Shown here piece by piece: positions 2,366 to 17,740 of a DNA stretch of 48,656 nt; position 1 is the stretch's first letter, and every line of letters begins with the position of its first letter. Under the pieces are notes generated by a model, which worked only from the letters and a program-made list of their open reading frames with translations, made no database searches and was not told the origin of the DNA. Where the stretch lies: contig CAIOOA010000274.1 of NCBI GenBank assembly GCA_903859815.1, positions 1 through 48,656 of the forward strand, read 5' to 3'. Source of the DNA: an uncultured Methylococcaceae bacterium. Lineage in GTDB: Bacteria > Pseudomonadota > Gammaproteobacteria > Methylococcales > Methylococcaceae. Both the position numbers and the translations under genes were made by a program.

Positions 2366-2540
2366 ACCATGGCAAGGGACGACGAACTGGCAAATTCCTT
2401 CAAACCGTCAAGGCCACGGGACTAGCGAGAGGAACCCTGCCCTTGGGCGGTGGTGATCGAAGCCACGGGCAAGGCCGGAACCACGGTCAAGCCAGAGGGC
2501 AAGGCCGGAACTTGGCACGGGCAACTGTTACGGGACTCCC
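2366..2540. repeat. Partial copy of the ~260-bp GC-rich intergenic repeat
   Basis: Contains the blocks 'cgtcaaggccacgggacta', 'gcgagaggaaccctgccc', 'gatcgaagccacgggcaa' and 'ggcaaggccggaac' in the same order as the copies at 5615-5865 and 6489-7161. It fills most of the gap between the Sel1 gene and the helicase, immediately upstream of the helicase start. I see no gene in it. Confidence 0.75.
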
Positions 2541-2588
2541 CTAAAACGTCTGCAAATTATTTGCTTGGCATGACAATAAAAGGGCAAT

Positions 2589-5585
2589 ATGGGAAAATCC
2601 CCGCGAGGATCGAAACCCATGCCACAAGAAAAACAAAATCAAGAAAATGAATGGAACATCCATGCGAAGCGGGGGAAAATTGCTTGTTTGATTTATAGCA
2701 GAAATGGCTCCTTGCTTTGCCAAAATGAGGCAGGATTGCAGATCAAAGGGGATGGCACTGAATTCCTGATAGGAATTACAGAATTGACCGCTCCGACTTC
2801 GTTGAAAATCGGCCTATTCTGGTCAACGCTTACAATCCAGACAGCCAGAAGGCGGCATACTTTTCCAGGCTTCAAGCATGACGGATTGTCACGCTTGGCG
2901 AACAGCCTAAATGATCAACTTCGGCGACACGCGGAAACACAGCTTGATGCTGCGTGTTTACCACTAGTGACCGTGCGGAAGGCAATCGAAAAGTTTCTTG
3001 GGCAACAACATTATTCTCGCGACTCCCAACGCCAAATGTTGGCGCAAAGTGCAGGACGGGCTATTGTGGTGGAGCAACATAGGTATTGGCCTTTTTTTGC
3101 AACCGAATCACAAAAGGCAACTATCGGGTTCGTCAAGCATTTCATTTTGCACTCTCAAAGCCTAGTGAATTCTGCTAATGTTGGTTTCGTTGCAAGGGAA
3201 ATACAACGATTTAAGGATTTCTTCGACACCATTGAAAGCAAACCGTTGACGCTTGCCCAGCGTCGAGCCTGTGTCACCAATGAGGATAACAATTTGGTTC
3301 TCGCTGGGGCCGGTACTGGCAAAACCAGCGTAATGATTGGTCGTGCTGGATACTTGCTGGCCACCAGAGAATCCCGTCCTGATGAATTGTTGATGCTTGC
3401 TTTTGCGAAAAAAGCCATGCAGGAAATGCAAGAACGTCAAGACAAGCGATTGAGTACCCTACTCAAAGGTGAAACCCCAACCATTAAGACTTTTCATTCG
3501 CTTGGACTTGAAATCATCGGCAAAGCGGAAAGCAAGCGACCTTCGCTAAGTCCTTTTGATGAAGACAAGCAATTATATATGCGCTTTATTGACAAGCTGT
3601 TGATAGAGCAACTTAAGAATGCCCTCTTTAAGAGCAAAGTTGTCAAATTTTTTACTAGTTACCTTTACCCTTATCGAAACCCTTTCGATTTTTCCAATAT
3701 GGGTGAATACAATAATTACGTGCGCAGCAATGAGCTTAGGACTTTACAAGCGGAAACTGTAAAGAGCTTTGAGGAATGCGAAATAGCTAACTTTTTGTTG
3801 CAACATGGGGTTAATTATCAGTATGAAGCCAATTACATCATCGACACGGTGACAGCCGATTACCGGCAATACAAACCGGACTTTTATTTGCCTGACTATG
3901 ACATCTACATTGAACATTTTGCATTGGACAAACAATGGCAACCCCCTAGCCATTTTGACCAAGTACGATATTTGGAAGGTATTCGCTGGAAGCGTGAACT
4001 CCATCAAAAACATGGCACTACCCTGATAGAAACCTATTCTTTTCTGAAACGTGAAAAGCGATTGTTGACATTTCTGGCAGATGCCTTGAACTCTGCGGGA
4101 GTTGAACTTACCAAGCGACCGGACGATGAATTGCTTGAAAAGTTAAAGCTTAAGGGTGTAATTTCAGAATTTTCTGGTTTGCTTGGCAGATTTTTAAAAT
4201 TATTCAAGCAATCTTCTCTAGGATGGTTGGCTTTGTCAGAAAAAGCGAGAAACCATCGTGATATGGAGCGTATGACATTTTTGCTGGAAATCTTCAAGCC
4301 TATATTCGATGCTTACCAGCATCACTTGGCGGAGCGCAATGAAATTGACTTTGCAGACATGATTGGAAGGGCTGTAGATCATATCGAGGCTGGGCGCTAT
4401 CGCTCCCCTTACACGCATATACTTGTTGACGAATTTCAAGATATTAGCGCGGCTAGAGCCAAGCTTATCATGGCACTTCTCAGGCAGCGACCGGAATCAG
4501 TATTATTTGCCGTGGGCGATGATTGGCAGTCCATCTATCGTTTCACCGGTAGCGATATTGGTCTAACCAAGCATTTCGGCAAAGCATTTGGCATTACGGC
4601 AACCACGGCACTTGATACAAGTTTTCGCTTCAATAATATGATAGGCGATGTTGCGGCAAGTTTTGTGCTGAAGAACCCCGATCAAGTCACAAAATCTATT
4701 GAAGCAATCAGGAAGATATACGAACCATCTATTTCGCTGATTCGCACTCAAGGTATGGAAAAGGGGTTGAAGTTAGCTTTGGATGCTATCAAAGATAGAA
4801 AAAACTCAATAGATAGTCAAAATATCAGCGTATTAATTCTTGCCCGTTATAATTATTTAATAGATGATTTGAAGTCATCATCTGCCATAAATTCTTTTGA
4901 GAAGGCTTTCCCAAATTGTAAACTGGAAAAGATGACCATCCACTCTGCTAAAGGAAAAGAAGCGGATTATGTGATAACCCTAGGTTTGGAAAAGGGTAAA
5001 TATGGTTTTCCTAGCGAAAAGGAATCCGATGCACTGCTTGAATTTTTACTCCCGGATAAAGAGGCTTTTTTATTTGCAGAAGAGCGAAGATTGTTCTACG
5101 TGACTTTGACTCGCGCTCGTCATCGTGTGTATCTGGTTTACAATCCGTTAATGGTATCCAAATTCATTAAAGAATTGATGAGCGGGGAATATCCAATTTG
5201 TTTGGATGAATTCGATGAAAGTTCGATTGATCCATACCTTGAGGAAGTATCTTGCCCGATCTGTGAAGATGGTAATCTTGTCCCGAAAACAAATCGTAAA
5301 AACGGTTCAATTTTTATCGCTTGCAACAACTATCCTTACTGCAAATACACTGAACGCCCTTGCCCTCAATGCAAGGGACTTATGCGCCGAGAAGGACGAT
5401 TTAAAGTATGTACCAATCAGGCTTGCGGGGAAGTGCAACCAACTTGCTTGAAATGCGGGGCCGTGATGGTGCAACGAACTGGCCCGTATGGGCCATTCTG
5501 GGGGTGTCTAAATTATAGTAGCAATTCAGATTTTGTTTGTACTTACAAGGAAAAGCACATTAGGTTTCCAGCAAAGGCAGTTTAA
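2589..5585 (+). CDS. HelD-type (helicase IV) superfamily 1 DNA helicase with zinc ribbons
   Basis: A 998-residue UvrD/Rep-like helicase closest in its motifs to E. coli helicase IV (HelD). Visible motifs: Q motif and Walker A (GAGTGKT, near residue 240), Walker B DEFQDIS (near 614), motif III FAVGDDWQSIYRF, motif V MTIHSAKGKEADYVI and motif VI YVTLTRARHR. Two parts are extra to E. coli HelD (about 684 residues). One is an insertion near residue 430 with PDFYLPDYDIYIEHF, resembling a PD-(D/E)xK nuclease-like core. The other is a C-terminal tail from about residue 889 with three Cys4 zinc ribbons of topoisomerase type (CPIC...C, CPQC...C, CLKC...C). ATP-driven 3'-5' unwinding is the family role; nuclease activity is inference. 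The start has AGGG 5 bases upstream. Intergenic repeats of one family flank it on both sides, suggesting an accessory gene, possibly for DNA repair or defence. Confidence 0.85.
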   Translation: MGKSPRGSKPMPQEKQNQENEWNIHAKRGKIACLIYSRNGSLLCQNEAGLQIKGDGTEFLIGITELTAPTSLKIGLFWSTLTIQTARRRHTFPGFKHDGLSRLANSLNDQLRRHAETQLDAACLPLVTVRKAIEKFLGQQHYSRDSQRQMLAQSAGRAIVVEQHRYWPFFATESQKATIGFVKHFILHSQSLVNSANVGFVAREIQRFKDFFDTIESKPLTLAQRRACVTNEDNNLVLAGAGTGKTSVMIGRAGYLLATRESRPDELLMLAFAKKAMQEMQERQDKRLSTLLKGETPTIKTFHSLGLEIIGKAESKRPSLSPFDEDKQLYMRFIDKLLIEQLKNALFKSKVVKFFTSYLYPYRNPFDFSNMGEYNNYVRSNELRTLQAETVKSFEECEIANFLLQHGVNYQYEANYIIDTVTADYRQYKPDFYLPDYDIYIEHFALDKQWQPPSHFDQVRYLEGIRWKRELHQKHGTTLIETYSFLKREKRLLTFLADALNSAGVELTKRPDDELLEKLKLKGVISEFSGLLGRFLKLFKQSSLGWLALSEKARNHRDMERMTFLLEIFKPIFDAYQHHLAERNEIDFADMIGRAVDHIEAGRYRSPYTHILVDEFQDISAARAKLIMALLRQRPESVLFAVGDDWQSIYRFTGSDIGLTKHFGKAFGITATTALDTSFRFNNMIGDVAASFVLKNPDQVTKSIEAIRKIYEPSISLIRTQGMEKGLKLALDAIKDRKNSIDSQNISVLILARYNYLIDDLKSSSAINSFEKAFPNCKLEKMTIHSAKGKEADYVITLGLEKGKYGFPSEKESDALLEFLLPDKEAFLFAEERRLFYVTLTRARHRVYLVYNPLMVSKFIKELMSGEYPICLDEFDESSIDPYLEEVSCPICEDGNLVPKTNRKNGSIFIACNNYPYCKYTERPCPQCKGLMRREGRFKVCTNQACGEVQPTCLKCGAVMVQRTGPYGPFWGCLNYSSNSDFVCTYKEKHIRFPAKAV

Positions 5586-5614
5586 AGCCGAATAGCGGGC
5601 TAGTAGCACAAATC

Positions 5615-5865
5615 AGCACACACCAACCAAGGCACAGGCAACCGGCGCAAGCCTTCACGGTCTGGCAGGGTTAGCCGATTGCCGTTAGCACCACGGGCAA
5701 GGCTCCACGATCTGGCGATAGCCTTCCAAACCGTCAAGGCCACGGGACTAGCGAGAGGAACCCTGCCCTTGGGCGGTCTGGTTGGATGAAGGTCGAAGCC
5801 ACGGGCAAGGCCGGAACCTCGATCAAGCCAGACGGCAAGCTAGAACTTGGCAGAGCAAGGCCAAT
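5615..5865. repeat. Copy of the ~260-bp GC-rich intergenic repeat
   Basis: A near full-length unit with the same order of blocks as the array at 6489-7161: 'caaggcacaggcaaccggcg', 'ccttcacggtctggcaggg', 'cacgggcaaggctccacga', 'cgtcaaggccacgggacta', 'ggcggtctggttggatg', 'gccggaacctcgatcaag'. It follows the helicase gene directly; its partner at 2366-2540 precedes that gene. No gene is visible in 5586-5961. Confidence 0.8.
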
Positions 5866-5961
5866 ACCGAGCGAATTATTGAGTAAATTGTTCTATACTT
5901 TAAGCTTATGCAAAATAAATATCACTGCTTTATCAAAACAACAAATAGGAGATAGTAAACG

Positions 5962-6465
5962 ATGAATATTTATCATTATTTTCTTGTAATCTTAGTATTG
6001 ATCTTATCCTCGATTGGTCATGCGGACGAACAATATAAATGGGTAGATGAAGATGGAAATATTATCTATAGCCAAAGAAATCCAGGCGGGACATATAAAC
6101 TTGAAAAAACTATTCATTACGAAAACGAATGGCAAAGTGACATTGATGCTATGAAAAGAGAAAATACCAGAAAACAAATTGAGGCAGAAAATGCTAGGCA
6201 AGAGGCTCAACAGCGAATGATCTTTGAGCAGGAGCAGCAGCAAAGACAAAATGAATTAGAGACAGCTCGCCATAACCAAGCTGTTGAAGCACAACTTAAA
6301 GAAACCAATAACAAAATCGATCAAACCAACAAGGAGTTGAACCGCGCTAGAAGACAGGAGGCGATTCAACGCCAATTAGATCGAGATCAAGCTAGACTTC
6401 GTAATTCTAGGGGAATGAACTGCCGCCCAAATTATAGCGGTGGATTCGATTGTGAAAATCGCTGA
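5962..6465 (+). CDS. Secreted DUF4124-domain protein
   Basis: A 167-residue protein. Residues 1-21 form a signal peptide (hydrophobic core LVILVLILSSIG, likely cleaved after HADE or nearby). A DUF4124 motif follows (YKWVDEDGNIIYSQRNPGG), then a long charged, Q/E/R-rich helical region (about residues 60-145) likely to form a coiled coil. Two cysteines sit in the tail (NCRP, FDCENR). DUF4124 proteins are periplasmic proteins of unknown role common in gamma- and betaproteobacteria. A good ribosome site (AGGAG) lies about 12 bases upstream of the ATG. The gene sits alone between two blocks of the GC-rich repeat. Confidence 0.8.
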   Translation: MNIYHYFLVILVLILSSIGHADEQYKWVDEDGNIIYSQRNPGGTYKLEKTIHYENEWQSDIDAMKRENTRKQIEAENARQEAQQRMIFEQEQQQRQNELETARHNQAVEAQLKETNNKIDQTNKELNRARRQEAIQRQLDRDQARLRNSRGMNCRPNYSGGFDCENR

Positions 6466-6488
6466 ATCTCTTGATTTTTTTAGAAATT

Positions 6489-7161
6489 AAGGGGGTAGAT
6501 CGAAGCCACGGGCAAGGCCGGAACCTCGATCAAGCCAGACGGCAAGGCCGGAATTGGGCAGGGCTTCACAGTCTGCCAGCACACCGCCACCAAGCAAGGC
6601 ACGGGCAAACGGCGCAAGCCTTCACGATCTGGCAGGGCAAGCCGATTGCCGTTAGCACCACGGGCAAGGCTCCACGATCTGGCGAGAGCCTCCTAACTGT
6701 CAAGGCCAAGGGACTAGCGAGAGGAATCCTGCCCTTGGGCGGTCTGGTTGGATGGTGATCGAAGCCACGGGTAAGCCGGAACCCCGACAATTAGGACGGC
6801 AAGGCCGGAATTGGGCAGGGCTTCACGGTCTGCCAGCACAACGCCACCAAACAAGGCACGGGCAACCGGCGCAAGCCTTGACGGTCTGGCAGGGTTAGCC
6901 GATTGACTAGCGCACCATGGGCAAGGCTTCACGATCTGGCGAGAGCCTTCCAACCGTCAAGGCCACGGGACTAGCGAGAGGAATCCTGCCCTTGGCGGTC
7001 TGGTTGGAGGGTGATCGACACGGGCAAGGCCGGAACCTCGATCAAGCCAGACGGCAAGGCCGAAATTTGGCAGGGCTTCACAGTCTGCCAGCACACCGCC
7101 ACCAAGCAAGGCATGGGCTACCGGCGTAAGCCTTCACGGTCTGACAGGACAAGCCGATTGC
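6489..7161. repeat. Tandem array of a ~256-268 bp GC-rich repeat, about 2.6 units
   Basis: Three successive units: 6489-6756, 6757-7012 and a partial unit 7013-7161. Each begins 'gatcgaagccacgggcaag' or a variant, passes through 'cagggcttcacagtctgcca', 'ccgccaccaagcaaggcac' and 'ccgattgccgttagcacca', and ends 'ggcggtctggttggatggt'. The unit is itself built of shorter related motifs (ggcaaggcc, acgggcaagg). It can be read through as open frames on both strands, but these look like repeat translation rather than genes. Single or partial units occur at 2366-2540 and 5615-5865. Function unknown. Confidence 0.85.
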
Positions 7162-7264
7162 CAAAAATCAGCCTGTACGGAAAAGGGGTAGTTATCCACA
7201 GGCAAGAAAGCCAGCAACCACGCGGGTTTGATTTGGTGAAAATGGGTGTACGTTAAACAGTCGT

Positions 7265-7302
7265 TTATCGTACAATTGTGCTATACTGTAATCATACGAT
7301 AA
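7265..7302 (+). promoter_or_regulatory. Inverted repeat around a -10-like box upstream of the recombinase
   Basis: The 8-base arms ttatcgta (7265-7272) and tacgataa (7295-7302) flank a TATACT box (7282-7287), about 35 bases before the recombinase ATG. It could be an operator for autoregulation or a recombination site half-site pair; no clear -35 box is seen. Confidence 0.35.
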
Positions 7303-7321
7303 CAGTACAGGAGCGCAAGCC

Positions 7322-7945
7322 ATGAATACCAAGAGCCAAAAACGCATAGCCCTCTATTTGAGAGTTTCCACCGATGGACAGACCACCGAGAACCAACGGC
7401 TTGAACTCGCCAAGATAGCCGAGCAAGCAGGATGGGAGATAGTGGAGACATACGAAGATCAAGGCATATCAGGGGCGAAAGGCCGCGACCAACGCCCTGC
7501 TTTCGATAAGCTTTGCAAGGATGCAGCACGGCGTAAATTCGACATGATAGCCGCTTGGAGCGTTGACCGGCTAGGGCGAAGCTTACAACACCTTGTCACC
7601 TTCTTGGAGGAATTGCATGGCCTAGGCATTGATCTTTACCTACACCAGCAAGGCATAGACACCACCACGCCAGCAGGAAAGGCAATGTTTCAAATGCTAG
7701 GCGTATTCAGCGAATTTGAACGCGCCATGATAAAGGATCGGGTAAACGCTGGACTTGCCAGAGCCAAGGCAGAAGGGAAGACTCTAGGAAGGCCAAAAAC
7801 CTCGACCGATACCGAGCAAGCCATAATTGAAGCCTTAACCAAGGGCGGGAAAGGAATGCAGAAAATAGCCAAGGAGTTTGGCGTAGGAACCTCAGTAGTG
7901 CAACGACTGGCCAAGGCAGAAGCCAATTTATCAATGCCCATTTGA
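7322..7945 (+). CDS. Serine recombinase (resolvase/invertase family)
   Basis: A 207-residue site-specific recombinase of the small serine (Hin / Tn3-resolvase) type. The N-terminal catalytic domain carries the nucleophile in YLRVST (Ser16), the R/D/R active-site block SVDRLGRS (about residues 79-86) and the helix that ends FSEFERAMIKDRV. The C-terminus (about 150-200) is a helix-turn-helix (GGKGMQKIAKEFGVGTSVVQRL). Length is normal and all key residues are present, so it should be active. AGGAG lies 10 bases upstream. It sits between the repeat array and tRNA-Leu, at what looks like the edge of the accessory region, and may be responsible for rearrangements there. Its target site is not proven. 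Confidence 0.9.
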   Translation: MNTKSQKRIALYLRVSTDGQTTENQRLELAKIAEQAGWEIVETYEDQGISGAKGRDQRPAFDKLCKDAARRKFDMIAAWSVDRLGRSLQHLVTFLEELHGLGIDLYLHQQGIDTTTPAGKAMFQMLGVFSEFERAMIKDRVNAGLARAKAEGKTLGRPKTSTDTEQAIIEALTKGGKGMQKIAKEFGVGTSVVQRLAKAEANLSMPI

Positions 7946-8029
7946 AACCCAGACTAAGGCAAAAAGCATTTCCTAGCCGCCGAGAAACGGCAACGGAACG
8001 GCAACGAAAAAAGAAAAATCACGCGAAAA

Positions 8030-8066
8030 TAAAAAAGGCTTGCCCAGAAAACTGTGCAAGCCTTTG
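8030..8066 (-). terminator. Rho-independent terminator of tRNA-Leu
   Basis: Read on the minus strand, an 8-bp stem AGGCTTGC / GCAAGCCT (arms 8056-8063 and 8036-8043) is followed by a run of T (8030-8036). It lies directly after the tRNA 3' end. Confidence 0.75.
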
Positions 8067-8073
8067 TTTAAAT

Positions 8074-8160
8074 TGGTGCCTCGGGCCGGAGTCGAACCGG
8101 CACACCGGTTAAGGCGAGGGATTTTAAGTCCCTTGTGTCTACCAATTTCACCACCGAGGC
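8074..8160 (-). tRNA. tRNA-Leu (anticodon UAA)
   Basis: The minus strand folds as a type II tRNA of 87 bases including an encoded CCA (8074-8076). The acceptor stem GCCTCGG pairs with CCGAGGC, the anticodon loop is CTTAAAA giving anticodon TAA, there is a long variable arm, and the T-arm GGTTCGACTCC is present. The body closely resembles other bacterial tRNA-Leu(UAA). It marks the border between the accessory region at the left and the housekeeping genes at the right. Confidence 0.95.
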
Positions 8161-8243
8161 AAACGTTTATCTATGCTTTTATTTTATCTTATTTGTGTGG
8201 CTACCACACGTACCATGATTGAGTATGGTGTTAACAAAATGCA

Positions 8244-8885
8244 TCAAACCGAATCCACTACCACATTATGCTTCAAGGCCAAACGCATCAGTTCAACATC
8301 GTTTTTCAAACCTAGCTTGTCGTAAATCCGGTGGCGATAGGTGCTAACGGTTTTCGCACTGATCACTAGGCTCTCAGCAATTTCATTCAGATCTTTTCCC
8401 TGCAAGGTCATCATGACTACTTGGACTTCCCTACGCGACAATAGCTCGAATGGGGAATTGTTTCTTCCCGATAAATTTGAAAACGCCAGTTTGCTTGCCA
8501 TTTCGTGGCACAAATAGCGTCCTCCCGCATTCACCACCAAAATGGCATCCACCAGTTCCTTATGGGAGCAAGTTTTGGTCACATACCCATGCACACCATC
8601 ATTTAACATCTGTTGTGGCACTGGCCCATCGGACAACACAGTTAAGATAATTATCTTAACATTTGGATTTTTTTGGTTTATTTTGTGACTTGCTTCCATG
8701 CCTCCTATCCCCGGCATGTTGATGTCCATTAATACAACATCGGGTTTTAGCGCATCAACCAACTTAATGGCTTCCTCGCCCGTTCCTGCCACCCCCACTA
8801 CATTGATCGATTGGGTTGATTCCAATAGAAGCTGGATGCCACTACGGACAAGCTCATGATCATCAACCAACAATACATTGATCAT
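8244..8885 (-). CDS. uvrY: UvrY/GacA-type response regulator
   Basis: A 213-residue two-component regulator. The receiver domain (1-120) has the acidic pocket VDDHE, the phosphoacceptor Asp54 in LMDINMPG, the conserved Thr (ILTVLSD) and Lys (GYVTKTC). The C-terminal LuxR-type helix-turn-helix (about 145-205) has LSRREVQVVMMTLQGKDLNEIAE and ISAKTVSTYRHRIYDKLGL. Length and motifs are those of GacA/UvrY, which in gammaproteobacteria is phosphorylated by BarA/GacS and drives small RNAs that titrate CsrA. The gene stands alone here; uvrC, its common neighbour, is not present. Confidence 0.88.
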   Translation of the reverse strand: MINVLLVDDHELVRSGIQLLLESTQSINVVGVAGTGEEAIKLVDALKPDVVLMDINMPGIGGMEASHKINQKNPNVKIIILTVLSDGPVPQQMLNDGVHGYVTKTCSHKELVDAILVVNAGGRYLCHEMASKLAFSNLSGRNNSPFELLSRREVQVVMMTLQGKDLNEIAESLVISAKTVSTYRHRIYDKLGLKNDVELMRLALKHNVVVDSV

Positions 8886-9106
8886 GGCTAAATCTTGCTC
8901 AACTATGGGGAATTATTAGGCTGGTTTGGTTGGCATTTCATCAATGATCCAAACTTATAAAGTTATCAATTCCTTACCGGTCTCGCGTGAGTGTCTCCGT
9001 TGAGTTGATATTTTAGCATCGTTAAGGTCGTCAGGTATACATCAAGATGGCTGTTTAGCCCGTTTTTTTAATAAACTCAAGACGCTGTCATTCTTGGTCG
9101 GCGAAC

Positions 9107-10525
9107 TTATCGACCGCGTTTTTCTGACACTCTCCCAAACAAGCGACCGTCCATCAAACGGATTTCCATCATGTCATCCAAGTTTACATCTTCAATACTA
9201 CGCAGGATTTTTTCACCTTTACTGGCAATCGCATAACCTCTCTCCAAAGTTGCCAAGGGGCTGACGGCGTGAAGTTTCTCGCCATGGGCCTTGACAAACT
9301 GGCGGCGTCGTTCCAACAATCGAGTGATTACGGCTGCCAGCCTGAGATGCAAGGCATTTCGACGAGTTTCCAGTAATTGCAAGCGTTGAACTGGGTGATG
9401 ACTATTGAGCTTGGCGGTGATTGTTTGCAGCTTGGTTCCGCGTTTGGCAATCCCTGATAAAGCGGCTCGGTTAAGCCGTAATTCCAATTCGTCCAAGCGC
9501 TGTGCATTGCGCTGCATTTGCTTTTCAGGATGGGATTGTTGCAAGCGTTTCAACAAATGGGTCAAAGACTGAGCCTCGTGGCGCAATTTGAGACTAATGT
9601 GTTGCTGAAATCGGGATTCCAAGCGAATAAAACGCCCCAACCATTCGCCAGAATCAGGGCTGATGGCTTCGGCAGCGGCTGTCGGCGTGGGTGCGCGTAA
9701 GTCTGCGACCATGTCTGCAATGGTGAGGTCCGTTTCATGCCCGACCCCACTAACGATGGGGATTGAGCAAGCCGCCATTGCCCTTGCTACAATTTCCTCG
9801 TTGAAAGCCCATAAATCTTCCAGCGAACCACCGCCACGGGCCAAGATCAAGGCATCGCATCGTTGCAAACGGTCGGCTAGGGCAATGGCACGGGCAATCT
9901 CGTGCTTAGCTTCGTTGCCTTGCACTTTAACCGGAAACACGATGACGGGCAGGGCAGGGAAGCGGCGTTTTAATACGGAGAGAATGTCCCGCACTGCCGC
10001 GCCCGTCGGGGAGGTGATAACCCCCACGCATCGGGGTGGGACTGGAATGGGTTTCTTACGTTTGGTGTCAAACATTCCCTCGCCAGACAGTTTGGCTTTC
10101 AAAACTTCAAACGCCCGGCGTAACGCCCCGTCACCGGCTTCTTCCAAATAATCGACGATTAACTGATATTCGCCGCGTGGTTCGTACAGCCCTACTTGCG
10201 CCCTCGCCAGTACTCTCATCCCGTTGGCGGGTTTAAACAATAAGCTTCGGGCTGAACCCTTAAACAACGCACAACGCACTTGGGCATCTTGATCTTTCAG
10301 GGTGAAATACAAATGACCGGAGGAGGGCAGGGCGAGGTTGGAAATTTCCCCCTCAACCCAGATCGTGCCGAAATGGCTGCTCAGTAATAAACGCACCGAC
10401 CCATTCAGTTCGGTGACGGTATAGATGGTGCGGGGTGGAGATATGGCGTTCAAAATATCTGGTTCTTGGGGCGTAGTTTCACTGTATGTATTCCTTGAAG
10501 TCGTCCAGTGGCTCATTAAAATCAT
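9107..10525 (-). CDS. xseA: Exodeoxyribonuclease VII large subunit
   Basis: A 472-residue protein with the XseA order. The N-terminal OB-fold has TVTELNGSVRLLLSSHFGTI, WVEGEISN and SGHLYFTLKD. The catalytic region has GVITSPTGAAVRDI and LARGGGSLEDLWAFN, then PIVSGVGHETDLTIADMVAD. A coiled-coil region follows (about 290-410), then a conserved C-terminal beta segment (LERGYAIA). With XseB it degrades single-stranded DNA from either end in mismatch repair and recombination; xseB is not in the window. The start could be residue 1 or Met4 (MSHW); no strong ribosome site decides. Confidence 0.93.
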   Translation of the reverse strand: MILMSHWTTSRNTYSETTPQEPDILNAISPPRTIYTVTELNGSVRLLLSSHFGTIWVEGEISNLALPSSGHLYFTLKDQDAQVRCALFKGSARSLLFKPANGMRVLARAQVGLYEPRGEYQLIVDYLEEAGDGALRRAFEVLKAKLSGEGMFDTKRKKPIPVPPRCVGVITSPTGAAVRDILSVLKRRFPALPVIVFPVKVQGNEAKHEIARAIALADRLQRCDALILARGGGSLEDLWAFNEEIVARAMAACSIPIVSGVGHETDLTIADMVADLRAPTPTAAAEAISPDSGEWLGRFIRLESRFQQHISLKLRHEAQSLTHLLKRLQQSHPEKQMQRNAQRLDELELRLNRAALSGIAKRGTKLQTITAKLNSHHPVQRLQLLETRRNALHLRLAAVITRLLERRRQFVKAHGEKLHAVSPLATLERGYAIASKGEKILRSIEDVNLDDMMEIRLMDGRLFGRVSEKRGR

Positions 10526-10610
10526 CCGACATCCATATTTTTCCTTTTAATGAACCCGCTTTAGGGTGAGGTCGAAAAGATGAAGCTAATGGTATCAATT
10601 TTGCGACAGG

Positions 10611-10709
10611 TTATTCATGTTCGGTCAACACGATTTCCTCGTCTGGCTTTAACTCTGCTATAAGCGTGGCGAGCGGGGGTAGATTTTGGTTTAGAGCATA
10701 AGTTTTCAT
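10611..10709 (-). pseudogene. Truncated Phd/YefM-like antitoxin remnant
   Basis: A 32-residue frame starting MKTYALNQNLPPLA and continuing LKPDEEIVLTEHE before a stop. This is the beginning of a typical Phd/YefM antitoxin (usually 70-90 residues), which normally continues with '..G.PVARL'. The DNA-binding start is kept but the toxin-binding part is absent, and no toxin gene follows. GGACGAA lies upstream. Most likely a decayed toxin-antitoxin locus in the 350-base gap between xseA and hslR; nothing else is seen in the gap. Confidence 0.45.
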
Positions 10710-10875
10710 GAGATATTTCGTCCGATGCAATGTTTTCTATTGAATATCATAAATTGATTCAGAATTTCCACCATTCTCTTTATTTCTCAATTAATTTGGC
10801 ATGACTAATAAAGACTTGCATTGTAATATCCTCATTTTGTAAGCAAAGGATTATTTTCCATTGAGAGCGACTGAT

Positions 10876-11304
10876 TCAACCCTCCCCCATCTCCCTCTTA
10901 AACCGATGTATCAAACGCCGGTCTTTCTTGTCGGGCCGTTCGTCGGGTTGTCCGCCCATATCCCTTATGAGCTTGCGGCGCTCCACTTCGGCTTGGCGTT
11001 TGGCGTGGCTTTCGGGGGTTTCTTCGTAGAGTAATGCGGCTTCGGAGGCGGGGCGGCGTTGGGCTTTCAACGCGGTGACGGTAATATCCCAAGTATATTG
11101 GTCTTTGCTAATTTCCAGTCTTGCGCCAATGCCGATTTCCTTGCCCGACTTGGCGCGTTGGCCGTTGAGATGAACTTTGCCGCCGTTGATGGCTTCGGTG
11201 GCGAGTGCGCGGGTTTTGAAGAAACGTGCGGCCCAAAGCCATTTGTCCAGCCGCATGCTGTCCTTGCCATCGCTTTCCTGTTCGTCGTGGGAATGACGAG
11301 ACAT
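10876..11304 (-). CDS. hslR: Hsp15-like ribosome-associated heat shock protein (S4 domain)
   Basis: A small basic S4-domain protein of about 142 residues. The S4 domain (MRLDKWLWAARFFKTRALA...INGGKVHLNGQRAK) is followed by a highly charged tail rich in R, K, E and D (RKLIRDMGGQPDERPDKKDRR). Hsp15 recycles stalled 50S subunits that still carry a nascent chain. I chose the ATG at 11304 (MSRHSHDE), 4 bases after the rhodanese stop; an upstream in-frame ATG at 11337 would overlap that gene by 29 bases. Probably co-transcribed with the rhodanese gene. Confidence 0.85.
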   Translation of the reverse strand: MSRHSHDEQESDGKDSMRLDKWLWAARFFKTRALATEAINGGKVHLNGQRAKSGKEIGIGARLEISKDQYTWDITVTALKAQRRPASEAALLYEETPESHAKRQAEVERRKLIRDMGGQPDERPDKKDRRLIHRFKREMGEG

Positions 11305-11308
11305 GCTG

Positions 11309-11680
11309 TTACGCTGCCGGGGTGACGACTTCCCCATCGGCTTGTTGCCAGCCGTTAAAGCCGCCAGCCAAACTGACTGTTTTGCTCCATCCGAGCTTTT
11401 GCAATACTTCGACTGCCAGAGCGGAACGACCGCCAGTCAGGCAATAAACTAGGATTTCTTCATGCTGTTTGCCTTGAAATGCGGGATGGCTGTCAATTTT
11501 AAATTCCAAAACCCCGCGTGGGATATTAACAGCACCGGGTAATGAGCCAGCGGCAAATTCGCCCGGTTCACGCACATCCAGCACTAAGGATTTAGTAACT
11601 AAGGTTTTGGCTTGGGCCACATCGACTTCAGTAATCTGTTGTTTTGCTGCGGCAACCAAGTCCATTGCTGTTGATGCCAT
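11309..11680 (-). CDS. Rhodanese-domain sulfurtransferase
   Basis: A 123-residue single-domain rhodanese. The active-site loop with the persulfide-carrying cysteine is VYCLTGGRSA (CxxGxR type), and LDVREPGEFAAGSLPGAVNIP is the standard rhodanese N-terminal block. It moves sulfane sulfur between donors and acceptors in the cytoplasm; no signal peptide is present. It lies 4 bases upstream of hslR on the same strand and is probably in one operon with it. Confidence 0.9.
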   Translation of the reverse strand: MASTAMDLVAAAKQQITEVDVAQAKTLVTKSLVLDVREPGEFAAGSLPGAVNIPRGVLEFKIDSHPAFQGKQHEEILVYCLTGGRSALAVEVLQKLGWSKTVSLAGGFNGWQQADGEVVTPAA

Positions 11681-11777
11681 ATTAAAACCTCTGTTTATAT
11701 TTTGTTAAAATTGATTGATTAATGCCTTTCATGGACATTATTGTTATCGGCTTTGGGTTCAGAGCTTGCTTTGTGGG

Positions 11778-11893
11778 TCAAAGCAAGCTTTGACGCTCCA
11801 CTATATGCCAAAGCAAGCTTTGACGCTCCACGATATTTCAAAGCAAGCTTTGACGCTCCACGATACGTCAAAGCAAGCTTTGACGCTCCAAGC
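11778..11893. repeat. Four tandem copies (30-bp period) of a palindromic 16-mer
   Basis: The palindrome tcaaagcaagctttga (7-bp arms around AA), or a one-base variant, is repeated four times with 30-bp spacing, each followed by 'cgctcca'. The unit between palindromes is nearly constant (cgctccacgata), so this is not a CRISPR array. A degenerate fifth copy starts near 11763. The same 16-mer recurs at 40735-40846. The array lies between the rhodanese start and the ispH stop. Confidence 0.85.
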
Positions 11894-11900
11894 TATGGGC

Positions 11901-12836
11901 CTATTTCATCCTTAGTTCCTTCGGCAGCGAGAAGACGACTTTTTCTTCGATGCCGGCATTTTCCGTCACCATTTTACCGCCCCAAGATTTGAGCTGTGAA
12001 ATGACTTTTTTGACCAGTATTTCAGGTGCGGATGCACCGGCAGTGACACCGACTTTTTTAGCACCCTCAACCCATTCCCGTTTCAATTCGGTCGCGTCAT
12101 CAATCAGATAAGAGCCTTTGCCCAATTTATCGGCAATTTCACGCAGACGGTTGGAGTTGGAACTATTGGGCGAACCCACCACCAAAATCACATCACAATC
12201 GGCAGCCAAGGTTTTCACCGCATCTTGCCGGTTTTGCGTGGCATAGCAAATATCGTCCTTTTTCGGGCCGATGATTTTAGGGAAACGCTCACGCAAGGCG
12301 ACAACAACGGCTTGGGTGTCATCAATGGAGAGCGTCGTTTGGGTCACATAAGCTAGGTTATCAGGGTTTTTGACTTCTAGTTTGCCCACATCGGCAGGGG
12401 ATTCGACCAGATAAATCCCGCCATTGGGATTAGTGTATTGGCCCATGGTGCCTTCCACTTCCGGGTGGCCTGCGTGGCCGATGAAGATGATTTCACGCCC
12501 TTCATTGGCATGGGCATGAACTTCGATGTGAACTTTAGTCACCAACGGGCAGGTGGCATCAAATACCTTCAATCCGCGTTCCTTGGATTCCAGTTGGATT
12601 TGCTTGGATACTCCATGGGCGCTAAAGATGACGGTGGAGTTTTCCGGCACTTCGGACAATTCCTCCACAAACACGGCCCCCCGTTCACGCAGTCCGTCAA
12701 CGACATAGCGATTATGCACCACCTCGTGGCGAACATAGATGGGTGCGCCAAACTCTTCGATGGCGCGTTCAACGATTTCGATGGCACGGTCTACACCGGC
12801 ACAAAAACCTCTAGGATTGGCAAGTATAATTTCCAT
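11901..12836 (-). CDS. ispH: 4-hydroxy-3-methylbut-2-enyl diphosphate reductase
   Basis: A 311-residue IspH (LytB), the last step of the MEP isoprenoid pathway, making IPP and DMAPP from HMBPP with a [4Fe-4S] cluster. The three cluster cysteines are visible in [12 protein letters not shown] (Cys12), [11 protein letters not shown] and [13 protein letters not shown]. Other conserved parts: [27 protein letters not shown] (the proton-donor glutamate), [12 protein letters not shown] and [13 protein letters not shown]. Full length with nothing missing. It stands alone between two repeat-bearing gaps. Confidence 0.96.
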
Positions 12837-12912
12837 TGGATATTTCTGTTTTATTTGAAAAATGAATAGAATGGCATTGTGTCACTTTGGCGCTATGGAC
12901 GCAACGCACCTA

Positions 12913-13119
12913 CAGCAATTCTCATTATGAGGTAAAGAGTTGACACGTAACCCGTCATTCCTGCCGGGAAGCAGGAAACCAGTCACAAGGACGTGAAACT
13001 TGGGTTTACTCACAGCGCTTAATCAAACACTTAAGCAGCCGACCCGTTACCGTCCATGGCACTGGATTCCGGCAGTCCATGCCAGAATGACGGCTTCCGC
13101 GCCAAAATGAGAATTGCTG
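12913..13119. mobile_element. MITE-like element with 14-bp terminal inverted repeats
   Basis: Ends are exact inverted repeats: cagcaattctcatt (12913-12926) and aatgagaattgctg (13106-13119). Inside is a second inverted pair, 'cgtcattcctgcc' near 12953 and 'gccagaatgacgg' near 13081, with 'ctggattccggcagtccatg' between. The latter resembles the very common interspersed 'CGTCATTCC...GGAATGACG' repeat of proteobacteria. No protein is encoded. It fills the gap upstream of ispH and downstream of the adenosyltransferase gene. Confidence 0.7.
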
Positions 13120-13166
13120 ACGCACCTAAGGCTGGATAGATTTTTGAAAGCAGAAACAGTCAAGTT

Positions 13167-13715
13167 TCATTTTTGCCCACCCCCACGCCATAGCACTTCA
13201 CCGCCATCTGCCCTTGCCATTACACGGGCGGCGACGAACAGAAAGTCGGACAAACGATTAATGAAGGCAAGGGCCGATGGTTCAACGGCTTCCTGTCGTC
13301 CCAAGGCCACCATCAAGCGTTCTGCCCGCCGACAAACTGTTCGGCTGATGTGACAGGCAGCCGCAGGTGGGTTGCCCCCCGGCAAGATGAATTCCTTTAA
13401 AGGGGGTAGGTCGTCATTGAGTTTGTCTAGCTCCTGCTCCAGCCAAGTGACATGTTCGGGCTTGATGAAAACATAGCCAGGCATACATAGTTCACCGCCC
13501 AAATCGAATAATAAATGCTGAATTTCGCAAAATGTCTCCCTCAGATTCAAAGGGAGTTCGTAAGTCAACACCATGCCTAAGTGGCTGTTCAACTCGTCCA
13601 CCGTGCCGTAAGACTCGACGCGCAAACTGTCTTTCGCCACCCGGTTGCCATCTCCCAGCCCGGTCGTGCCGTCATCGCCGGTCCGGGTATAGATCTTTGA
13701 TAGTCGATTGCCCAT
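13167..13715 (-). CDS. ATP:cob(I)alamin adenosyltransferase, PduO type
   Basis: A 182-residue PduO/MMAB-type adenosyltransferase that makes adenosylcobalamin from cob(I)alamin and ATP. The N-terminal ATP-binding signature is YTRTGDDGTTGLGDGNRV; other conserved blocks are VESYGTVDELNSHLG, FDLGGELCMPG, FILPGGNPPAAACHISRTVCRRAER and FINRLSDFLFVAARV. Length and motif order fit the family, and the protein should be a trimer. It starts 9 bases after the rraA stop on the same strand, so the two are probably one transcript. Confidence 0.92.
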   Translation of the reverse strand: MGNRLSKIYTRTGDDGTTGLGDGNRVAKDSLRVESYGTVDELNSHLGMVLTYELPLNLRETFCEIQHLLFDLGGELCMPGYVFIKPEHVTWLEQELDKLNDDLPPLKEFILPGGNPPAAACHISRTVCRRAERLMVALGRQEAVEPSALAFINRLSDFLFVAARVMARADGGEVLWRGGGQK

Positions 13716-13724
13716 GGACCTGCC

Positions 13725-14213
13725 TTAAATCAGTTTATCTTCTGCGACAACGATGCCGTCTTCATCTGCATAAAGATAGCTGCCCGTGCGGAAATTGACC
13801 CCGGCAAAGGTTATCAAACAATCTTTATCACCGCCGCCGCGTTTATGGCTTTTCATCGGGTGGGTGTGCAAGGCGCGGACACCAATGGGCAATTGGGCAA
13901 TCTCCAAGGAATCACGGATGCAACCATAGACGATGATCCCCTTCCAGCCATTGTCACAGGCCAATTTCGTCAAGTTACCGCCAAATAAAGCACAACGGTG
14001 CGATCCGCCGCCATCGATCACCAACACCCTGTCCTCGACTTTTTCTTCCAATACTTTCCGCAATAATACGTTGTCCTCAAATGTCTTTAGTGTGGAAATA
14101 CGTCCACAAAAAGAATGAATGCCGCCAAAGGATTTGAATACTGGGTCGGCAATTTGCAAGTGACGGTTGTTGTCTGCGAATTGATCGCATAGGTCGGGAG
14201 TTCTGAAGCTCAT
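13725..14213 (-). CDS. rraA: RraA-family protein (ribonuclease activity regulator / aldolase-like)
   Basis: A 162-residue RraA-family protein from the chosen start MSFRTPDLCDQ, a usual length for RraA. Conserved blocks: FGGIHSFCGRISTLK, VLVIDGGGSHRCALFGGNL, GWKGIIVYGCIRDS, and DEDGIVVAE at the C-terminus. RraA inhibits RNase E in E. coli; many relatives instead have 4-hydroxy-4-methyl-2-oxoglutarate aldolase activity, with the catalytic metal held by the 'GG.SRRALFGGN' and 'RD' residues, which are largely kept here. An in-frame start at 14309 would add a 32-residue N-terminus not seen in the family. Divergent from rluC. Confidence 0.88.
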   Translation of the reverse strand: MSFRTPDLCDQFADNNRHLQIADPVFKSFGGIHSFCGRISTLKTFEDNVLLRKVLEEKVEDRVLVIDGGGSHRCALFGGNLTKLACDNGWKGIIVYGCIRDSLEIAQLPIGVRALHTHPMKSHKRGGGDKDCLITFAGVNFRTGSYLYADEDGIVVAEDKLI

Positions 14214-14380
14214 GCTTGGGGTTCCATTTTTCTTGATATAGGGTTTAGGTAATTGCAAGCTTTGGGACAGCCAAACCGTTAAAGGGTTCAAGCTGGCAAA
14301 TTTTGGCATTCCGTCAATTATACATCGGCCTGAAAATAATCCATGCCCTCAAAGCCGCTGTCCTCTGTTATGATTGTAAA

Positions 14381-15340
14381 ATGACAGACGATATTTCCCC
14401 GGCCACATCCAAACCATATTTCATTGAAATCGGCGAGGAAAGCGCAGGCCAGCGCATTGATAATTTTCTATTCACCCAACTCAAGGGTGTCCCCAAAAGC
14501 CATGTCTACCGGCTCCTGCGCAAGGGAGAGGTGAGGGTCAATGGCGGACGCTGCCAAGCCCAGCGAAAATTGGAGCTAGGCGACAAACTACGCATCCCCC
14601 CTGTGCGCGTGGCCGAGCGAGAGGAGGCAGAAATACCCGAAAACTTGGTACAACAGCGTCTGGAAGGGCGCATTTTACATGAAGACGACGATTTTTTAGT
14701 GATCAACAAGCCGGCGGGGATGGCCGTGCATGGTGGGAGTGGGCTGAGTTATGGTGTCATCGAAGGTTTGCGAGCGCTCCGGCCCAATGCGAAATTTCTT
14801 GAACTGGTGCATAGGCTTGACCGGGAAACCTCAGGTTGTTTGTTAATTGCCAAAAAACGCAGCGCTTTGCGCCATCTGCATGAGATGTTTCGCGAAGATC
14901 ATCAGGTTAAAAAGGTTTATGTCGCCTTGTTGACCGGGGCTTGGGCAAGAAAGGGCCTGATGGTGGATGCCCCGTTGAAAAAAAATATTCTGCAAAGTGG
15001 CGAAAGAATGGTCAAAGTGGCAAGGGATGGCAAACCCGCCCGTACCGATTTCCGTCGTACCCGCAAATTTGCCAATGCCACATTGGTGGAGGCTAGTTTG
15101 TTGACTGGCCGCACCCATCAGATTCGTGTCCATGCTTTATCCATCGGGCATCCTATCGCCTGTGACGAACGTTATGGCGACGAAGGATTGAATGCGGAGT
15201 TCCGCCGTTTGGGTTTGAAAAGGCTATTCCTCCATGCCTCGGAATTGTCTTTCGCCCATCCACGCGACAACCGGCCTTTTCATATCAAAATACCCTTGGA
15301 ACCTGAATTAGAGGAATTTCTCGAACGTCTGCCACCATGA
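14381..15340 (+). CDS. rluC: 23S rRNA pseudouridine synthase RluC
   Basis: A 319-residue RluA-family pseudouridine synthase from the start MTDDISPATSK. The N-terminal S4 domain has GQRIDNFLFTQLKGVPKSHVY and RKGEVRVNGGR. The catalytic domain has the motif with the nucleophilic Asp (LVHRLDRETSGCLLIAK), and TGRTHQIRVHALSIGHPIAC near the end. RluC makes pseudouridines 955, 2504 and 2580 of 23S rRNA; assignment to RluC rather than RluD rests on the S4 domain and the HAD neighbour. A longer frame begins at 14303, but its first 26 residues look non-coding. The stop overlaps the next gene by 4 bases (ATGA). Confidence 0.9.
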   Translation: MTDDISPATSKPYFIEIGEESAGQRIDNFLFTQLKGVPKSHVYRLLRKGEVRVNGGRCQAQRKLELGDKLRIPPVRVAEREEAEIPENLVQQRLEGRILHEDDDFLVINKPAGMAVHGGSGLSYGVIEGLRALRPNAKFLELVHRLDRETSGCLLIAKKRSALRHLHEMFREDHQVKKVYVALLTGAWARKGLMVDAPLKKNILQSGERMVKVARDGKPARTDFRRTRKFANATLVEASLLTGRTHQIRVHALSIGHPIACDERYGDEGLNAEFRRLGLKRLFLHASELSFAHPRDNRPFHIKIPLEPELEEFLERLPP

Positions 15341-15987
15341 AAAATCGATTTGACCTAATTGTGTTCGATTGGGATGGAACCTTGATCGATTCCGTCCACT
15401 GGATCACCGAATGTTTGCAACAAGCTGCCCGTGACTGCGAAATGGAGGTTCCCGATGCCCGTCTAGCCCGCTCGGTGATTGGGCTTAGTCTGGACAGGGC
15501 CATGTCGACCTTGTTTCCCCATGCATCCAAGGCTGAGCTACCGCCATTGATTGCGGCCTACCACCGTTACTACGATGTGAAAATCTTAGGGCAGAGTGAT
15601 TTGTTTGACGGTGTGCCTCAGTTGTTGGATGATCTGCTCGAACAAGGCTACCAGTTGGCAGTGGCTACCGGCAAAAGCCGAAATGGTTTGAATCAAGCAC
15701 TCTCCAGCACCGGATACACCGACTGGTTCCATGCAACCCGTGCTGCCAATGAAACCGCTTCCAAACCTAACCCGCTCATGTTGCTGCAACTGATGGAAGA
15801 ATTGGGTAGCCCTCCCGAGCGGACATTGATGGTGGGGGATTCGGTGCATGACCTCGAAATGGCTAATAATGCCAATATTGGCGCAATCGGAGTGGTCACA
15901 GGGGCAAATGACAGGGACGAGCTATTGGCTTTAAACCCCGTGCTGGTGTTAAACCAAACCTCTGATCTGCGTGAATTATTACTTTAA
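15337..15987 (+). CDS. HAD-family phosphatase (phosphoglycolate phosphatase-like)
   Basis: A 216-residue haloacid-dehalogenase-type phosphatase. The nucleophile motif is FDWDGTLIDS (first Asp), motif II is AVATGKSRNG, the lysine is in ETASKPNP, and motif IV is MVGDSVHDLEMANNA. A helical cap lies between motifs I and II, as in subfamily IA. Translationally coupled to rluC by a 4-base overlap. This rluC-HAD pairing is conserved in many gammaproteobacteria; the substrate is not known, and small sugar phosphates or phosphoglycolate are possible. Confidence 0.9.
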   Translation: MKNRFDLIVFDWDGTLIDSVHWITECLQQAARDCEMEVPDARLARSVIGLSLDRAMSTLFPHASKAELPPLIAAYHRYYDVKILGQSDLFDGVPQLLDDLLEQGYQLAVATGKSRNGLNQALSSTGYTDWFHATRAANETASKPNPLMLLQLMEELGSPPERTLMVGDSVHDLEMANNANIGAIGVVTGANDRDELLALNPVLVLNQTSDLRELLL

Positions 15988-16089
15988 TCATTGTCAAAAC
16001 AGCCAAACCTACCAATAGGTTAAACTAGGTTTATCGTCGGCCAATTCTAAAATGCTTAGGCCGGAAATCGAATACAGTTAGAGGTAATC

Positions 16090-17079
16090 ATGAGCGAAGA
16101 AAATCAAGCTTCACCCCAGACCACAACAAAATATGAGAGCAAACCCCTGCCCACTTGGGAACGTGAAACCTTGGAAAAGGTGTTGCTGGCCTCGGTGAAC
16201 GAGCAGCGGCGAGGACGCATCTGGGGCGCAGTGTTAAAGTTGGGGTTTCTGCTGTATTTGATCGTGGTGGCTGTCTTGGCATTTCGACCCGCTAACGGCT
16301 TCTTCAACCAAGCGACTTCCAAAGAACATACTGCGGTGATTGATGTGGCCGGCGCAATCATGGAAGGCAATCCCACCGATGCTGACAATTTGATTGAGGG
16401 CTTGCGTGATGCCATCAAAGACAAGGCCACCAAGGGCATCGTTCTGCGCATGAACAGTCCCGGCGGCAGCCCAGTGCAGGCAGCTTATGTTTATGAAGAA
16501 ATACGCCGCATTAAGAAAGAAAACAGCAAAATGCCCATTTATGCTGTCGTTTCCGACATGTGTGCATCAGGTTGTTATTACATTGCAGCGGCTGCGGACA
16601 AAATCTATGTTCACCCGGCGAGTGTGGTCGGGTCCATCGGCGTGATTATGAATGGATTTGGTTTTGTCGATTCCATGCAGCGACTCGGGGTCGAGCGCAG
16701 GCTCATGATTGCAGGCAGTCATAAAGCCTTGATGGACCCGTTTTCACCGGTCAATGAATTTGAAAAAAACCACATACAAGGCGTGATCAACACGGTGCAT
16801 CAACAATTCATCGACGCGGTGAAGCAGGGCAGGGGAGATAGGTTGAAGGACAATCCAGACCTGTTTAGTGGATTGGTCTGGACTGGACAAGATTCGATAA
16901 AATTGGGCCTTGCCGATGAGGTCGGAAATGCTCGCGAAGTTGCCGAGAACGTCATTGGGGCAAAGGAAACCGTCAACTTCACCCCTAAGGAACGTTTACT
17001 TGACCGCATATCTCAGCGCTTGGGTGCCAGTTTAGGGGCTGCATTGCAATCGGCGATAGGTTCCTTCCAATTGCGTTGA
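16090..17079 (+). CDS. sppA: Signal peptide peptidase SppA-like protease (S49 family)
   Basis: A 329-residue membrane-anchored serine protease of the short S49 type. A single N-terminal membrane segment (about residues 50-68, LGFLLYLIVVAVLAF) is followed by the protease domain: VIDVAGAIMEG, MNSPGGSPVQAA, the catalytic Ser in SDMCASGCYYIAAAADKIY, PASVVGSIGVI, and the general-base Lys in AGSHKALMDPFSP. It degrades cleaved signal peptides in or at the inner membrane. Lies 102 bases after the HAD gene and 13 bases before nudF, so rluC-HAD-sppA-nudF may be one operon. Confidence 0.92.
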   Translation: MSEENQASPQTTTKYESKPLPTWERETLEKVLLASVNEQRRGRIWGAVLKLGFLLYLIVVAVLAFRPANGFFNQATSKEHTAVIDVAGAIMEGNPTDADNLIEGLRDAIKDKATKGIVLRMNSPGGSPVQAAYVYEEIRRIKKENSKMPIYAVVSDMCASGCYYIAAAADKIYVHPASVVGSIGVIMNGFGFVDSMQRLGVERRLMIAGSHKALMDPFSPVNEFEKNHIQGVINTVHQQFIDAVKQGRGDRLKDNPDLFSGLVWTGQDSIKLGLADEVGNAREVAENVIGAKETVNFTPKERLLDRISQRLGASLGAALQSAIGSFQLR

Positions 17080-17092
17080 ACGGGGTAGGGCG

Positions 17093-17704
17093 ATGAGTGG
17101 TTCGATCAAATCTTTTGAAGTGAGTGAAGAAACCTTGGTCTACGAAGGTTTCTTTAAAATGAGCCGGCTACGCCTAAGGCACACATTGTTTGGCGGAGGA
17201 TGGAGCAAAGAACTTTTCCGTGAATTATTGCACCGGGGTTCCTGCGTGGCGGTCTTGCTCTACGACCCCATCATGGATGCCGTGGTACTCATCGAACAAT
17301 TCAGAGTGGGCGCAGTCACCTTTAAAGAGGTTCCATGGCTTCTGGAAATAGTCGCTGGGGCGGTGGAAACAGGAGAAAGCCCGCAACAGGTCGCCCATCG
17401 GGAGGCTTTGGAGGAGGCAGGCTGTCAAATTGACCATTTGTTCAAAATTTCCGAATTTTTCACCACTCCGGGCGCATTTGGCGAGAAGATAACGCTATTT
17501 TGCGGTATTGTTGATGCATCGACGGCGGGTGGGGTTCATGGCCTTGAAGAAGAGGACGAAGATATTCGCGTCGAAGTCGTCGGGTTCGATCAGGCTTGGG
17601 GTATGCTGGAAAATGGCTCCATCGATTCGGCCATTCCCATTATTGCATTGCAATGGCTGGCAATGAATCGTGAGCGCCTTCAGGCGGAATTTAACGGCGA
17701 ATAG
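17093..17704 (+). CDS. nudF: ADP-ribose pyrophosphatase (Nudix)
   Basis: A 203-residue Nudix hydrolase of the NudF/ADPRase type. The full Nudix box is present: GAVETGESPQQVAHREALEE followed by AG (GX5EX7REUXEEXGU). Family blocks before it include LLHRGSCVAVLLYDP and VVLIEQFRVGA; the blocks FFTTPGAFGEKITLFCGIVD and EEEDEDIRVEVV follow. It splits ADP-ribose into AMP and ribose-5-phosphate. Preceded closely by sppA; GGTAGGG lies before the ATG. Confidence 0.92.
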   Translation: MSGSIKSFEVSEETLVYEGFFKMSRLRLRHTLFGGGWSKELFRELLHRGSCVAVLLYDPIMDAVVLIEQFRVGAVTFKEVPWLLEIVAGAVETGESPQQVAHREALEEAGCQIDHLFKISEFFTTPGAFGEKITLFCGIVDASTAGGVHGLEEEDEDIRVEVVGFDQAWGMLENGSIDSAIPIIALQWLAMNRERLQAEFNGE

Positions 17705-17740
17705 TTTCATATTGAAGCAATCGTTTTTATAGGCAATAGT

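Follow-up and report, generated by a model that had tools for sequence, protein, structure and literature searches.

A 257-bp repeat family at module borders of genomic islands in a Methylococcaceae genus, probably a homology joint for cargo exchange

What is the role of the GC-rich intergenic repeats that surround a helicase gene and precede a small serine recombinase gene in an uncultured Methylococcaceae bacterium? The repeats lie in a contig of 48,656 nucleotides (CAIOOA010000274.1, assembly GCA_903859815.1), analysed here at its full length as the window. An initial annotation made from its sequence had regarded them as probably non-coding and had offered a recombination substrate, a non-autonomous mobile element or a structural RNA as explanations. 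The seven genomes of the genus are labelled G000 to G006, where G000 (5.8 Mb, 315 contigs) is the genome of the window itself, contig C274; C and L numbers denote contigs and analysed stretches. We consider it likely, though well short of certain, that the repeats are homology joints at which islands would exchange cargo by homologous recombination, a reading drawn from junctions in draft genomes.

Sequence searches, nhmmer and TRF among them, located in the window a single GC-rich family with a unit of about 257 base pairs (bp), arranged in three blocks that all lie on the + strand (Table 1). Together these amount to five complete or partial units; splitting the middle block at the unit phase of nhmmer makes six. 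The initial annotation, which placed at least five full or partial units on both sides of the helicase gene and in tandem before the recombinase, is thereby borne out. The other two blocks match the array at E-values of 6.1e-80 and 1.4e-36, far beyond chance. The contrast in composition also held, with a GC content of 0.63 at 6501-7000 against 0.39-0.47 in 500-base bins across 2501-6500. Nine full units could be aligned with a mean column identity of 93%, including one-base insertions and deletions (indels) that shift the reading frame, and the edges of repeats mapped by nhmmer fall at many positions of the unit and not at one. The idea that the unit is built of smaller related words fared less well: the best internal 30-base match was 22/30, a value equalled by one of 200 single-base shuffles, and no over-represented word in the array was striking. 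The word GGCAAGGC occurs seven times on the + strand of the 669 array bases and never on the - strand.

In the genome of the window, 11 matched pieces form eight blocks on three of the 315 contigs (C274, C17 and C65), the weakest match being a 33-base piece on C17 (E 4.4e-8). The repeat occurs in six of the seven genus genomes, G004 having no match, and in none of 31 other genomes of the family or 24 others of the order. A distant-mode search of plasmids and phages found no match, and viral contigs had no exact match to the 23-base core pattern. In a genome collection, four stretches have that exact pattern, a count that may omit records of the window's own genome; the three contigs concerned come from two assemblies, one of Candidatus Methylumidiphilus alinenensis AMbin10 and one of an uncultured Methylococcaceae bacterium. 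We infer that the genus, one of methanotrophs, is Candidatus Methylumidiphilus. The true number of copies may be higher, since a repeat forms the end of contigs G001:C247 and G006:C50; draft assemblies of the genus can thus break within these sequences. Among the matches listed in the literature on Methylumidiphilus and related topics we recognized no description of the repeat. The text of PMC8397446 does not contain genomic island, mobile, tRNA or recombinase and has 'repeat' only within 'repeatable', and 'repeat' was not found in the available part of PMC12629846. Overall, this is a new and so far genus-restricted family of island-border DNA.

The setting of the repeats was examined in 11 repeat-bearing contigs, taken whole or in part. 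Within each locus all copies lie on one strand, and the contigs carry island-type genes for defence, toxin-antitoxin, helicase and primase functions. Type III modification genes occur on C17, G006:C25 and G005:C84, with the matching restriction gene on G006:C25; a Toprim primase is encoded on C17, G006:C16 and G001:C247, a DUF3987 protein on C17 and SSB on G006:C16. A transfer RNA (tRNA) gene is present in the analysed stretch of eight of the 11 contigs. In six of these (the window, C17, G006:C16, G005:C84, G003:C319 and G002:C167) the gene comes after the repeats and lies on the other strand, and in two (C65 and G006:C50) it comes before them on the same strand; none was found in the analysed stretches of G006:C25, G001:C247 and G001:C394. 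The clearest island is on G000:C65, where about 12.5 kb (approximately 6330-18963) with an integrase gene and restriction-type genes extend from tRNA-Sec to an attachment site (att) copy. Its contents include a tyrosine integrase gene beside tRNA-Sec, an Mrr and helicase-domain gene, an HI1420-type antitoxin gene and three repeat blocks. The att copy, a partial duplicate of the tRNA end and its flank, lies at 18928-18963, which is 360 bp beyond the last repeat. Of the eight tRNA loci searched for a duplicated att sequence, this one alone gave a positive result; none was found at the window or at the six others.

The relation of repeats to module borders provides the central evidence. We compared the eleven loci after masking the repeats and counted homologous blocks of at least 150 bases. 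There were 32 such blocks. In nine of them an end lies 1 bp from a repeat at one or more loci, and in 14 the distance is within 75 bp. Since masking itself creates block ends at repeats, the informative part of this result is that homology between islands reaches or enters a repeat on one side and does not resume on the other. For example, G002:C167 and G000:C17 match along the side with tRNA-Pro and typA (2.5 kb, 94%) and for about 50 bases into a repeat; what precedes that repeat sequence is an antitoxin cassette in one and an array behind type III restriction-type genes in the other. The same antitoxin cassette is common to C65 and G002:C167 (94.9% DNA identity), where it is bounded by repeats on both sides at different tRNA genes, and its left border is identical in C65, G006:C25, G002:C167 and G001:C394. 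Three of the 14 antitoxin matches in the seven genomes are close copies (99-100% amino acid identity) and their cassettes adjoin a repeat, the remaining 11 matches being at 48% identity or less. Furthermore, the window and G006:C16 have in common the array, the segment that follows it, the recombination-site candidates and the recombinase (93%), and the region before the array differs. A block with an open reading frame (ORF), which we take to be PIN-like, ends 1 bp from a repeat in G006:C50, and its copy in C65 (95%) lies 8 kb from any repeat.

Sequence identities between G000 and G006 also bear on exchange. The recombinase module and the antitoxin cassette both stand at 93%, compared with 83% for typA and 82% for the gene at window positions 11901-12836 in the core, and 69% for the region after the recombinase. 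The excess of 93% over 82-83% suggests that the modules probably moved between the G000 and G006 species. Stronger constraint is an alternative to transfer, but the value of 93% includes non-coding parts.

These patterns suggest how the repeats might act. Because many islands carry the same 257-bp sequence, copies would be a substrate for RecA-type recombination with one another. Recombination between copies would swap, add or drop the DNA lying between them, and unequal exchange would yield tandem arrays and truncated copies. Edges at many unit positions fit homologous or illegitimate exchange better than a fixed crossover point. The initial suggestion of a recombination substrate thus survives in part: islands do switch from shared to unrelated DNA at the repeat, but it is very probably not the site of the serine recombinase (see below).

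Several observations weigh against homology joints. The other 18 of the 32 blocks have no end within 75 bp of a repeat; several of them lie in the replication-gene region, and two start at site I of the recombinase. One of the 18, between G001:C394 and G002:C167, retains the flanks on both sides of a short repeat piece, which is plain inheritance. A single old event may account for all four identical left borders of the antitoxin cassette. The position of the tRNA gene relative to the repeats is not uniform. No second copy of the helicase with which to compare its borders was found in the seven genus genomes at E <= 1e-60. At the tRNA-Leu gene of G001 (L083, G001:C203, about 1964-2088), an antitoxin scar (86 bases, 92%) and a recombinase scar (34 bases) lie together, which from their sequence appear to be a decayed island, and no repeat match stands beside the antitoxin scar or elsewhere in that locus. 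The word GCTGGTGG, which we take to be the E. coli-type Chi word, is not in the array. Finally, recombination itself is read from draft genomes and was never observed.

A serious competitor, which we nevertheless hold to be unlikely, sees the repeats as remnants of one ancestral island region broken up after duplication, with recombination at them incidental and unselected. Truncation of units at many positions and drift by substitutions and indels agree with this, and similarity between units is little greater within an array (92.5% mean identity, 8 pairs) than between loci (90.0%, 28 pairs). What speaks against it is the recurrence of the repeats at module borders and their presence in six genomes beside several different tRNA genes. 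The initial annotation had named copies limited to this locus and lacking structure as a sign of simple local duplication; structure is indeed lacking, yet copies extend through most of the genus.

A second rival makes the repeats a replication or partition site of the islands, resembling iterons, for which the crr region of satellite P4 offers an analogue. Genes for primase, DUF3987 or SSB on C17 and G006:C16 agree with this, as does the DnaA-box-like sequence TTATCCACA at 7192-7200, inside the conserved post-array segment. However, a relative of the primase is found in all seven genomes, including G004, which has no repeats, whereas the att-bounded island of C65 has repeats and no primase match at E <= 1e-20. 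Copies truncated at many positions also fit poorly with such a site, and we regard it as improbable. The island primase had no relatives among viral contigs.

Could the serine recombinase next to the repeats use them as targets? A gap of 160 bp separates the array from the recombinase gene, and the two are neighbours in G006:C16 as well. In small serine resolvases, the res sites are palindromes of about 28 bp that come in pairs immediately before the recombinase gene. This arrangement is found here in the recombinase module's own site candidates, which follow a 28-bp palindromic consensus, TRTACGNNAAACNNNNGTTTNNCGTAYA, and not in the 257-bp repeat. The best score for this consensus in the array was 11/20, which equals the background (10-14 in random 700-bp viral stretches), against 20/20 at site I (Table 1). 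Moreover, related recombinases in two other genera have the palindrome type in front of them, at about 25 bp in G013 (68% identity) and, with an ORF between, at about 430 bp in G020 (75%), and neither genome has a repeat match. Repeats as targets of this enzyme are consequently very improbable, and the sequence leads us to regard the serine recombinase as an independent module of resolvase-like type, equipped with 28-bp site candidates of its own. The places of these two related recombinases (L053 and L054) are two of five with more distant recombinases; the site type was not found at the other three (L055, L056 and L058), two of which are gene fragments. None of 12 relatives in viral contigs (46-64% identity) has it, the best scores being 11-14 as in the null, and none of these 12 loci has an array with a period near 257.

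The recombinase may nevertheless contribute rearrangements of its own. On G000:C65, a complete site I is found at 8656-8683 (L010), the left side of which matches the window; its right half differs and no recombinase follows. The homology between C65 and the window ends inside this site I, and site-specific recombination may have produced the altered site. A second such border occurs in G006:C25, where similarity to the recombinase module starts no more than 2 bp from the centre of the site. The two borders together suggest a further source of island rearrangement, namely this enzyme acting at its own site.

The two other explanations of the initial annotation found no support. A structural or regulatory RNA might be expected from the high GC content and low absolute folding energy of the unit, and its consensus fold is slightly below column shuffles (z -1.4 and -1.85; 9 and 3 of 100 shuffles as low), a difference that we do not take as structure. 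Single-strand folds are at the level of dinucleotide shuffles (a window unit has z -0.75 on one strand and +0.09 on the other, a G006 unit -0.45), none of 75 pairs of the consensus fold changed on both sides among nine units, and Rfam gave no match over the repeats, which makes an RNA highly improbable. A miniature inverted-repeat transposable element (MITE) is equally hard to credit: copies are several and dispersed, but their ends vary, no inverted repeat of at least 20 bases was listed at unit ends (no search for empty sites was made), and the 11 pieces in the window's own genome are confined to three contigs with island-type genes.

The earlier impression that the unit is non-coding was upheld. 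Column variability across units lacks a period of three (p 0.21), one-base indels change the frame between units, and two conceptual peptides of the unit consensus had no PHROGs match up to E 1. Protein ancestry was considered, the frames reading well in places, and was rejected given the missing periodicity and the lack of a PHROGs match. A promoter and terminator scan of 5560-7400 revealed a promoter-like site overlapping the end of the array and no terminator-like sites. Overall, the repeat is probably a recombination joint rather than an RNA or protein gene.

Known systems help to place the family. In integrons and superintegrons, a recurring non-coding sequence (attC/VCR) stands between cassettes, and the present islands are similar in that repeated non-coding DNA stands between theirs; toxin-antitoxin cassettes are among those of both. 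They differ in that the 257-bp unit has no unusual fold and no attC-like dyad and that its edges are spread over the unit with no fixed crossover, although four loci agree in the left border of one cassette. Another comparison is with the neisserial intergenic mosaic element (NIME) arrays. In the available part of PMC3898611, these measure 200-2700 bp, lie between genes and are suggested to favour recombination with incoming DNA and the exchange of genes at neighbouring loci, their units consisting of a 20-bp dRS3 with inverted ends (almost 700 copies) and RS repeats of 30-160 bp. The present repeat also forms intergenic arrays beside variable genes, but it is one 257-bp unit with eight blocks in its own draft genome, on island-type contigs, and the dRS3 pattern ATTCCC N8 GGGAAT was not seen by eye in the unit consensus. 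By analogy, it may work like the neisserial intergenic repeat arrays, of which it is not a member. Defence hotspots of P4-like satellites and P2-like phages, as the accessible portion of PMC9122126 describes them, are fast-changing cargo loci with defence genes in small mobile elements, flanked by two conserved genes and adjacent to cos; cos ends combined with homologous recombination are put forward there as a speculation. The islands described here differ, since a repeated DNA unit borders several modules, and no helper-phage link is shown.

The remaining features of the window belong to the cargo and the island edge (Table 1). The helicase resembles PADLOC GajB/UvrD models (best E 1.1e-41), and no GajA match was found in the two helicase neighbours scanned (620-2278 and the DUF4124 gene). 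Positions 7156-7321 are 98% identical in G006:C16, and the first 117 bases of this region are 95% identical in G000:C65. At 11777-11897, a 30-bp unit whose core is palindromic, GTCAAAGCAAGCTTTGACGCTCCACGATAT, occurs four times in tandem.

Table 1. Repeat blocks and neighbouring features of the window, with coordinates and supporting evidence.
Feature	Position	Strand	Evidence
Partial repeat unit (~0.6), left of helicase gene	2366-2520	+	81% identity to array
UvrD-type helicase (cargo), 998 amino acids, Helicase_IV_N and zinc ribbons	2589-5585	+	Pfam; PADLOC GajB/UvrD models
Near-complete repeat unit (~0.9), right of helicase gene	5614-5856	+	88% identity to array
Small DUF4124 protein (cargo), 167 amino acids	5962-6465	+	Pfam E 1.1e-6
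Tandem array, 2.6 units, period 257	6493-7162	+	TRF score 1052; nhmmer
Conserved post-array segment	7163-7246	+	Comparison with G006:C16 and G000:C65
28-bp palindromic recombination-site candidate, site I	7247-7274	+	20/20 specified positions
Second 28-bp site candidate, site II	7282-7309	+	15/20 positions
Small serine recombinase, 207 amino acids, resolvase/invertase family	7322-7945	+	Pfam Resolvase 1.6e-47; PHROG DNA invertase 1.2e-57
tRNA-Leu (UAA) at island edge	8074-8160	-	ARAGORN; Rfam tRNA

The homology joint can be extended to a bolder and more tentative proposal, which at present we consider possible rather than likely, namely that the repeat is a genus-wide DNA adaptor. Islands at several tRNA genes would then retain the 257-bp sequence in common at their cargo borders, letting homologous recombination of the host pass defence and toxin-antitoxin modules between any islands; if true, this would be a cassette system without a dedicated recombinase. 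How defence genes move so rapidly among islands is an open question, for which the part of PMC9122126 at hand offers only speculation in the case of P4-like hotspots. A repeat that recurs at module borders gives a sequence handle on whether shared homology, and not a dedicated enzyme, drives the exchange of cargo.

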